A stretch of 64,000 nt of DNA. Origin: Bradyrhizobium manausense. GTDB taxonomy: Bacteria > Pseudomonadota > Alphaproteobacteria > Rhizobiales > Xanthobacteraceae. Shown here in pieces: positions 19,746 through 22,009 of this stretch. The stretch lies in contig NZ_LJYG01000112.1 in assembly GCF_001440035.1 (NCBI RefSeq), positions 237,361 to 301,360 of the forward strand. The letters run 5' to 3'. The position numbers were made by a program, and so were the translations under genes. The stretch's first letter is position 1; each line of letters starts with the position of its first letter. The notes beneath the pieces were generated by a model. That model was not told the origin of the DNA. It ran no database searches and saw only the letters and a list, made by a program, of their open reading frames with translations.

Positions 19746-19801
19746 ACTTTGTGAACGACGCTACCTCAGGCATTTTGCCACGACAACAAAAAGGCGATGG
19801 C

Positions 19802-20062
19802 ATGCCAGAAATTAAGATCGTCATGGAGGTCGCCGGCCGCATCTGCGCAACTCCCGTGCAAGTTGGAGGAACTGTCGCCGATGGCGAGGACGTTGTGGTC
19901 GTCGAAGCCATGAAGATGGAGATACCGGTGCAATCGCCTGCATCGGGCACGCTGACATCATTGCTCGTGAAGATCGATGATCTCGTTGCCGAGGGACAGG
20001 CGATCGCGATCGTCGTGAGCTGCGCGCGCGCCATCGGCGGCTTGTCGGCCACGACAATCTGA
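19802..20062 (+). CDS. Biotin carboxyl carrier protein (small acyl-CoA carboxylase subunit)
   Basis: An 86-residue single biotinyl/lipoyl domain. EAMKMEIPV (about residues 38-46) is the canonical biotinylation loop with the modified lysine between two methionines, and the beta-strands repeat around it in the usual hammerhead pattern. It would carry carboxyl groups from a biotin carboxylase to the carboxyltransferase encoded just across the IclR gene. Such stand-alone carriers exist in multi-subunit acyl-CoA carboxylases. The start at 19802 (MPEIKIVM) is preferred over 19751, which would run through the operator region. The carboxylase subunit is not nearby. Confidence 0.9.
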   Translation: MPEIKIVMEVAGRICATPVQVGGTVADGEDVVVVEAMKMEIPVQSPASGTLTSLLVKIDDLVAEGQAIAIVVSCARAIGGLSATTI

Positions 20063-20134
20063 AACAGATGATATCGGAAGGGCGCGTGGAGTCTTGCGTT
20101 CGGGCGTCACCACGAGACCGGACGGGTTGCGCAT

Positions 20135-22009
20135 ATGCTTAATGCGTTGCACAAGGGAGCGATGATAGCGCAACCGTTGCACGCCTCCGCCTGGACCCGC
20201 TCGAAGCCGCCGCTGCTGCGGTTTCTCGACACATGCCTCAATGAATTCTCCGCGGAGACTGCAGGCCATGTCGCAGATTATATTCCCGAACTGAGCAAAG
20301 CCGATCCTGCCTATTTTGGCATCAGCCTCGCCACGCTTGACGGTCATGTCTACGAGGTGGGCGACTCCCGGGTGCCCTTCACCATCCAGTCGATGTCCAA
20401 GCCGTTCGTGTTCGCTTTGGCGCTGGATCTTTTGGGCGCGGGCAAGGTCGAGGGGGCGATCGGCGTCGAACCCTCGGGCGATCCCTTCAACTCGATCCGG
20501 CTCAACGCGGAAAACCATCCGTTCAATCCGATGGTGAATGCCGGCGCGATCGCCTGCACGGGGCTGATCTACGACAGTAAGGGATCTGAGGCCTTTGAGC
20601 AGATCCGGCTTGCGCTCAGCCGCTTTGCCGGGCGCGAACTCGCCGTCGACGAGGCGGTTTACTCCTCGGAGAGCCAGACCGGCGACCGCAATCGCGCCAT
20701 CGGCTATCTGCTCAAGACCAATGCGGTGATCTCGGACAATGTCGCTGAAGTCCTCGACGTCTATTTCCGCCAATGCGCCGTGCTGGTCACCGCGCGCGAC
20801 ATCGCAGTGATGGCGGCGACGCTCGCCAATCGCGGCGTCAATCCGGTGACGGGCGAACAGGTGCTGACGCCGTATGCGATTTCGCGCACGCTGTCGGTGA
20901 TGACGTCGTCGGGCATGTATGATTATGCCGGCGAGTGGATCTACCGGATCGGCATCCCCGCCAAGAGCGGCGTCGGCGGCGGCATTCTGGCCGCGCTCCC
21001 GGCCCGTCTCGGGCTCGGCAGCTATTCGCCAAAGCTCGACAAGCACGGCAACAGCGTGCGCGGCATCAAGGTCTGCGAGGCGCTGTCCTCGCATTACGAC
21101 CTGCACATGCTCAACCGCAGCGATGACGCCCGCAACGCCGTGATCGCCGACTACGATATCGGCAAGAGCCCGTCACGCCGCGTCCGCCGCCAGCAGGAGC
21201 GCGACATCCTTGCCGCGCACGAGCAGGCCGTGCGCGTGATCGAGCTGGTCGGCGTGCTGTCGCTGTCGGCCGTCGACTATGTCTCGCGGCGGCTCGCCGG
21301 GCGACCGCGACCGCAAATCGTCGTGTTCGACCTGCACCGCGTCACCTCGACGACGCGCGCCGGCGCGCGGCTGATCGCCGAGGCTTTCGAGGAGCTGGCC
21401 GCGCTCGATGTCACCGTGGTGATTTCAGGCGTTCGTCGCGCCTCCAGGGAATGGGACACATTGCGGGAGTGGACCGCGGAGCTGAAGAACGTCCGCGACT
21501 TCTATTTGCTCGACACGGCGATCGAATGGGCGGAAGACCAGATCGTCTATCGCTACGGCGGCTCGATCGATTTTCACGAGACCACCGAGCTGTCCGAACA
21601 GCCGCTGCTCGACGGCCTCAGCGCGGAAGAGCTGACCGATCTCGCCTCGATCTGCACCATCAGGACCTATCAGTCCGGCGCAAAGATCGTCACGACGGGC
21701 GATCCGGCCGATGCGCTGTTCTTCCTGCGCAGCGGCGCGGTGCATGTCACCCTGCCCGACGGCGTGCGCCTGGCGACGCTGACCGCCGGCATGGCCTTCG
21801 GCGAGATGGCCCTGATCGAGACCGCCCGCACCGCCGACGTGTTCGCGGATATGGCAGCGACTGCGTTCGAAGTGCCGCTGAAGGACTTTGAGCGCTTTCG
21901 CAGGCAGCATCCGCGTGCCTCGGAGCGCATCATGCGCAACCTGGCGCAGCTGCTCGCCGATCGCCTGATCGTCGCCAACACCAAGGTGGATATTCTGACT
22001 TCGACGTGA
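20135..22009 (+). CDS. glsA: Glutaminase A fused to STAS and cyclic-nucleotide-binding domains
   Basis: A 624-residue three-domain protein, twice the size of ordinary GlsA (about 310). Residues about 20-330 form a serine-dependent glutaminase with S86-M-S-K89 (the SxxK nucleophile), SSESQTGDRNRAIGY and IPAKSGVGGGI; it hydrolyses glutamine to glutamate and ammonia. Residues about 355-465 look like a STAS domain (VIELVGVLSLSA, VVFDLHRVTST). Residues about 490-615 form a cNMP-binding domain with FLRSGAVHV and the phosphate cassette FGEMALIETARTADV, where alanine replaces the usual proline. A second start at codon 10 is possible. Activity may be gated by a nucleotide or by partner binding; this is inference. 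Confidence 0.92.
   Translation: MLNALHKGAMIAQPLHASAWTRSKPPLLRFLDTCLNEFSAETAGHVADYIPELSKADPAYFGISLATLDGHVYEVGDSRVPFTIQSMSKPFVFALALDLLGAGKVEGAIGVEPSGDPFNSIRLNAENHPFNPMVNAGAIACTGLIYDSKGSEAFEQIRLALSRFAGRELAVDEAVYSSESQTGDRNRAIGYLLKTNAVISDNVAEVLDVYFRQCAVLVTARDIAVMAATLANRGVNPVTGEQVLTPYAISRTLSVMTSSGMYDYAGEWIYRIGIPAKSGVGGGILAALPARLGLGSYSPKLDKHGNSVRGIKVCEALSSHYDLHMLNRSDDARNAVIADYDIGKSPSRRVRRQQERDILAAHEQAVRVIELVGVLSLSAVDYVSRRLAGRPRPQIVVFDLHRVTSTTRAGARLIAEAFEELAALDVTVVISGVRRASREWDTLREWTAELKNVRDFYLLDTAIEWAEDQIVYRYGGSIDFHETTELSEQPLLDGLSAEELTDLASICTIRTYQSGAKIVTTGDPADALFFLRSGAVHVTLPDGVRLATLTAGMAFGEMALIETARTADVFADMAATAFEVPLKDFERFRRQHPRASERIMRNLAQLLADRLIVANTKVDILTST

Follow-up and report, generated by a model that had tools for sequence, protein, structure and literature searches.

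A Bradyrhizobium serine glutaminase with a STAS and cyclic-nucleotide-binding tail: a candidate for second-messenger control of glutamine deamidation

The window, that is, the whole 64,000-nt stretch of Bradyrhizobium manausense DNA analyzed here, contains a gene whose product joins a serine glutaminase to a STAS domain and a cyclic-nucleotide-binding domain (cNBD). This gene, its parts and the gene directly upstream are as follows, with positions counted along the window.

19751 to 20062, plus strand: biotin/lipoyl-carrier gene (PF00364), ending about 73 nt upstream of the glutaminase gene
20135 to 22009, plus strand: glutaminase-STAS-cNBD gene, 624 aa, a single uninterrupted ORF with an ATG start
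20264 to 21109, plus strand: serine glutaminase catalytic domain, residues 44-325 (PF04960, E 6.9e-114), superposing on Mglu and human GLS
20390 to 20401, plus strand: S86 to K89 of the catalytic domain
21173 to 21187, plus strand: linker motif S-x-R-x-R between glutaminase and STAS, residues 347-351
21215 to 21448, plus strand: STAS domain, residues 361-438 (PF01740), superposing on the C-terminal domain of Mglu
21512 to 21535, plus strand: linker helix motif D-x-A-x-E-W-x-E between STAS and cNBD, residues 460-467
21662 to 21910, plus strand: cyclic-nucleotide-binding domain, residues 510-592 (PF00027), CRP-family fold with Z about 18
21797 to 21835, plus strand: phosphate-binding cassette FGEMALIETARTA, residues 555-567
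21911 to 22000, plus strand: long C-terminal helix, residues 593-622 (DSSP of the model), aligned to GlxR and Clr

The fusion of three domains in one frame, recognized in a preliminary description of this DNA, is borne out by the uninterrupted ORF and by three Pfam models that all score above their cut-offs. The glutaminase part is complete, as had been claimed from its S86xxK89 and KSGVGG motifs: PF04960 matches residues 44-325 with 380.3 bits (cut-off 27), the NCBIfam glutaminase A model TIGR03814 gives 337.7 bits (cut-off 255.4), the Ser-x-x-Lys pair is S86 and K89, and AKSGVGG occupies residues 276-282. A further NCBIfam model, NF002134 (PRK00971.1-4, "glutaminase", 429 positions), scores 429.4 bits, below its cut-off of 557. 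Among 114 non-redundant relatives, the set used for the conservation counts, K89 is present in all and S86 in 112. By family model and Ser-x-x-Lys pair the 624-aa protein is a serine glutaminase, predicted to release ammonia from glutamine, and nowhere else in the genome of 9.15 Mb does PF04960 find a match.

An AlphaFold2 model of the full-length protein, built with 49 aligned proteins, has a mean pLDDT of 91.2 and a pTM of 0.80, with pLDDT below 50 at residues 1-18 only; structure prediction, which had been proposed as a check, thus returned a confident three-domain model. The best solved match to it is Mglu, the salt-tolerant glutaminase of Micrococcus luteus K-3 (PDB 3ih8, 3if5, 3agd), which superposes on residues 23-434 (Z 47.8, rmsd 1.6 across 388 residues, 40% identity) and carries a glutaminase and a STAS-like domain that are placed alike relative to each other. 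The solved Mglu chains (398-450 residues modelled) lack a cNBD and end at about the start of the second linker of the Bradyrhizobium protein. The combination of glutaminase and STAS is thus already known from crystal structures, and what is added here is the cNBD. The human kidney- and liver-type glutaminases (GLS, GAC, GLS2) match the catalytic domain alone (Z about 45, 42-43% identity); human glutaminase has ankyrin repeats as its regulatory tail and phosphate as activator, and the STAS-cNBD part is absent from it. Two glutaminases of 508-516 aa (loci L057 and L058, genomes G302 and G203) have ends that by eye resemble ankyrin repeats. For human GAC, a tie between glutaminase activity and the oligomeric state is discussed (PMC3787022).

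The Pfam search proposed for the C-terminal part found both expected domains, each above its cut-off. The STAS match (residues 361-438, E 1.6e-5) has 25.1 bits, barely over the cut-off of 22.6, and the assignment is backed by the fold held in common with the C-terminal domain of Mglu. The cNMP_binding match (residues 510-592, E 2e-16) has 60.1 bits against a cut-off of 27.5. Modelled alone, the C-terminal 170 residues give a pLDDT of 87.2 and a CRP-type fold, with matches to GlxR and Clr at Z 18.4 each, the rmsd being 2.5 over 143 residues for GlxR and 1.8 over 135 residues for Clr. The cNBD fold and the long last helix are common to these regulators and the Bradyrhizobium protein, which lacks their DNA-binding domain and has an enzyme as its output. 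Helix 593-622 presumably occupies the place of the CRP dimerisation helix. Both characteristic residues of the cassette, E557 and R565, are present, and we take Glu557 to contact the ribose and Arg565 the phosphate, as in CRP and PKA. The E557/R565 cassette is supported as a predicted cyclic-nucleotide site.

That the architecture "may occur in relatives", as first put, understates its distribution. A full-length orthologue is found in 33 of the 35 congeners searched (in one congener, G012, a TAG lies within the matched stretch, yet an ORF of 615 aa remains), and nine of these 33 carry a second full-length copy with 58-60% identity. Genome scans, in which three to six candidates were scored per genome and the counts are therefore lower bounds, gave full-length matches in at least 54 of 296 genomes at family level, 5 of 385 at class level and 12 of 398 at phylum level, the own genome included. 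Scans of the same kind centred on other members, with the centre genome counted, gave at least 5 of 194 genomes for the phylum around a verrucomicrobial protein, at least 3 of 220 for the order around a betaproteobacterial one and at least 3 of 214 for the phylum around a cyanobacterial one. The best 80 of 579 confirmed stretches, picked by likeness to a triple-domain alignment (A2) and hence showing where the family occurs, not how commonly, come from Alpha-, Beta- and Gammaproteobacteria, Verrucomicrobia, Planctomycetes, Cyanobacteria and Actinobacteria. The glutaminase-STAS-cNBD architecture is sparse, spread across several phyla and not a one-off. A plasmid search with the whole protein returned 143 records, none covering at least 80% of the query in one place; the matches in the 40 of these records that were listed are partial, the longest of them reaching residue 404 (Embleya). 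Apparent decaying relatives are seen as a second copy split into two frames (L039, genome G025) and an isolated cNBD-like ORF (L046, genome G013), and a short remnant persists in a congener without the full gene (G006:C6:74704-74871).

E467 (21533-21535), in the helix linking STAS and cNBD, and G534 are present in all 114 relatives, so that E467 is as constant as the catalytic lysine; G373 is kept in 113, E557 in 110 and S347, in the first linker, in 108. D460, E464 and E467 are invariant in an alignment of four glutaminase and three SulP tails (A4). One row (L111) is out of frame across the cassette, its Arg being an alignment accident, and cassette counts use the 113 readable relatives: R565 is present in 99 and together with E557 in 98. 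Of the 14 without it, 12 are actinobacterial and the other two are L121 and L310; some actinobacterial members (L135, L146) retain it. Since E467 persists even in proteins that have lost the Arg, ligand binding is not the whole role of the tail, and part of its job apparently needs no nucleotide. It may then be asked whether the whole tail is a nucleotide-free structural part, an oligomerisation scaffold or partner-docking platform with the cassette as an inherited relic. The 12 actinobacterial relatives that have the tail without the cassette Arg, the better conservation of E467 and G534 than of the Arg, and the STAS of Mglu without a cNBD in the solved chains are in keeping with such a scaffold. 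However, the Arg is lost in just two proteins beyond Actinobacteria, and the gene neighbourhoods described below also speak against it; we regard this explanation as rather unlikely.

Several readings were considered and did not hold up. Where the preliminary description saw an alanine substituted for the cassette proline, a loop with one residue fewer (eight against nine) is the better reading, and loss of the proline as a special trait is rejected. Counted from E557 to the position of the Arg, the loop has eight residues in 47 relatives, nine in 63 and ten in three, with one of the 114 unreadable; the Bradyrhizobium loop is of the eight-residue type and retains both Glu557 and Arg565. Specificity for cGMP was considered on account of Thr566 and rejected, as this position is Ser in 58 of 90 relatives and Thr in 13 of 90. 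The best phmmer match, a Plasmodium PKG, was likewise rejected as a sign of cGMP specificity, being the sum of four weak domain matches of which the best single one has an E-value of 1e-4. Finally, loss of the Arg does not coincide with absence of cyclases: eight genomes of Arg-less actinobacterial members that were searched gave 1-14 class III matches.

Clustering of the ORFs that flank the glutaminase gene in relatives revealed one recurrent neighbour, with CHASE2 and Guanylate_cyc domains (Pfam) in eight of ten members scanned; two are truncated where their flanking sequence ends and show one domain each. Besides this neighbour the clustering yielded frames on the opposite strand, clusters confined to single genera and a loose cluster in eight loci that by eye is ABC-ATPase-like, all of which were left aside. 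There are 120 triple-domain loci with wide flanks, 115 after near-identical ones are dropped. A CHASE2-class III cyclase gene is adjacent to the glutaminase gene in nine of the 115 (L112, L123, L125, L126, L139, L159, L163, L165 of Xanthobacter and L312) and lies within about 6 kb in five further loci (L144 and L158, both fragments, L155, L242 and L256), the calls for L163 and L256 resting on HMMs built from other neighbours; for L312 and L242 both domains were confirmed by Pfam. The remaining 101 loci have no such cyclase within reach. No CHASE2-cyclase neighbour was found in a comparison set of 40 wide-flank loci of tail-less glutaminases, one of them on a short contig. At 70% clustering, cyclase linkage is found in 6 of 33 triple-domain clusters versus 0 of 11 tail-less clusters, a contrast that is modest by Fisher's logic. 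The argument from cyclase density is stronger. Calculated from 60 genomes, in which class III cyclases average 1.2 per Mb, and with a target of 6 kb assumed, the expectation is 0.44 adjacent cases, against 8 seen (Poisson 2e-8), and 1.16 cases within 6 kb, against 11 seen; the genomes of the remaining triple-domain loci, which lack such a neighbour, lie outside the 60, making the expectation somewhat low. By a hand estimate, even with 0.8 adjacent cases expected the probability would be near 2e-6. As some pairs are related, the independent adjacent cases come down to about six clusters.

The hosts of the adjacent cases belong to Alpha-, Beta- and Gammaproteobacteria, Verrucomicrobia and Cyanobacteria. 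With starts assigned mechanically, the two genes are separated by 3 to about 270 nt in six cases, whereas the gap in L112 is about 760 nt. The cyclase is upstream and codirectional in L112, L123 and L125, downstream and codirectional in L159, L163, L165 and L312, convergent in L126 and divergent in L139; these differing orientations are as expected of an association that has been re-made repeatedly. All 13 cyclase-linked proteins in the alignment carry the Arg. In the Pseudothioclava genome of L112 (G1082, 2.8 Mb) the neighbour is the sole class III cyclase match. Class III cyclase matches are absent from four of 49 further genomes, whose completeness is not given, and the Arg is kept in three of the four proteins concerned. 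A small stand-alone cNMP-binding protein of 157 aa lies near the triple-domain glutaminase of one locus (L242:7912-8382, minus strand), the only one confirmed by Pfam; similar tail-type matches occur near glutaminases in L113, L125, L141, L155 and L159.

Cyclase genes that adjoin the glutaminase gene far above chance are hard to reconcile with the nucleotide-free scaffold. They also bear on the idea that the cNBD reads a ligand other than a cyclic nucleotide. FNR- and NtcA-type regulators have such ligands, and the last 170 residues match CRP/FNR-family folds in general, FNR itself as well as HCN and plant-channel proteins being among the matches. Nevertheless, most members retain the cassette Glu and Arg, and the recurrent cross-phylum neighbour, apart from the loose ABC-ATPase-like cluster, is a cyclase, which makes a different ligand very improbable.

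A nucleotide response is supported by the conserved cassette residues together with the above-chance adjacency of CHASE2-cyclase genes in relatives, and we consider it reasonably probable that deamidation by this glutaminase is switched by 3',5'-cAMP or cGMP through the C-terminal cNBD. We infer ligand binding, an allosteric path and a sensed signal along the following lines. The cyclic nucleotide would bind the cNBD, with Glu557 at the ribose and Arg565 at the phosphate, and binding would rearrange the long C-terminal helix. The movement would pass via the D-x-A-x-E-W-x-E linker and the STAS domain, which packs beside the catalytic domain in the model, and would alter subunit packing or an active-site loop. 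Activation seems the likelier direction of the effect. In several relatives the messenger could come from the CHASE2-class III cyclase encoded next door, and in B. manausense from one or more of the 35 unlinked class III cyclase domains of its genome, three of them with CHASE2. The earlier suggestion of an activity that responds to a nucleotide therefore gains from cassette conservation and from the gene pairs of relatives, whereas the 64-kb window itself contains no class III cyclase match. Likewise, none was found in the flanks of roughly 1.2-1.5 kb around 29 of the 33 congeneric orthologues.

In the window, an IclR regulator gene (minus strand) and then the biotin-carrier gene (plus strand) precede the glutaminase gene, and MazG and carboxymuconolactone-decarboxylase-family genes follow on the minus strand. 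A TRAP DctM gene lies directly upstream, at about 8-101 nt, in 37 of 53 genus-level orthologue rows, which count at least three genomes twice; the biotin-carrier gene is upstream in 10 and neither gene in 6. The order in L175 is biotin carrier, DctM, glutaminase. The window's own group has the biotin-carrier gene in place of DctM directly upstream (19751-20135 compared with L175), and, to judge by the order in L175, the TRAP gene has probably disappeared from this site.

Matches to the last ~280 residues, with 23-30% identity, are also found at the ends of longer frames of mostly 730-840 aa, and all 13 of those scanned are Sulfate_transp, STAS and cNMP proteins (Pfam). These SulP (SLC26-type) anion transporters share with the glutaminase the STAS domain, the D-x-A-x-E-W-x-E linker, the cassette and the last helix. 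A similar S-x-R-x-R motif occurs in the first linker of some; the N-terminal part of these proteins is a membrane transporter where the glutaminase has its enzyme. Such a tail, and the DctM gene beside so many genus-level orthologues, could mean that STAS places the glutaminase at the membrane or at a TRAP or SulP transporter, coupling its product to transport, with any nucleotide effect secondary. The window's own group, however, has a biotin-carrier gene and not a TRAP gene alongside, and we think this arrangement improbable.

Cyclic-nucleotide control of the glutaminase, the reading we prefer, can be taken one step further. Tentatively, and with slightly more doubt than confidence, we propose that the STAS-cNBD tail is a portable cassette that acts as a general cyclic-nucleotide regulator of glutaminases and SulP transporters, and that with the CHASE2 cyclase it would form an undescribed two-gene circuit leading from an extracytoplasmic signal to ammonia and glutamate release, without transcription, in several phyla. 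Open-licence PMC full text, judged by titles and the starts of abstracts, yielded no article about a glutaminase that carries a cyclic-nucleotide domain; PMC2837644 holds an unrelated domain table. The preliminary view that the system is not described thus stands, within that literature, for the whole architecture, but not for its glutaminase-STAS half, which has the Mglu structures. If the proposal is true, second messengers may govern how nitrogen is released from glutamine, and direct allosteric regulation of an enzyme central to nitrogen metabolism would be a cyclic-nucleotide output other than transcription or channel gating. It would also give the crowded cyclase sets of rhizobia, such as the one in this genome, one concrete target. 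Thanks to the cyclase-glutaminase gene pairs, two small clones would be enough to test the idea, and the shared tail ties it to SulP transporters.

As for the origin of the fusion, a tree of 65 tails shows three changes of setting between glutaminase and SulP, and a tree of 83 catalytic domains, a chosen subset, shows three label changes; both are poorly resolved, and neither a single nor a multiple origin is claimed. In Betaproteobacterium AAP51 the glutaminase ORF is directly preceded, on its upstream side, by a second frame that resembles the tail (L142:6061-8797). On an Ensifer plasmid (L330, NZ_CP070354), the fourth gene downstream of a tail-bearing SulP transporter is annotated as an adenylate/guanylate cyclase.
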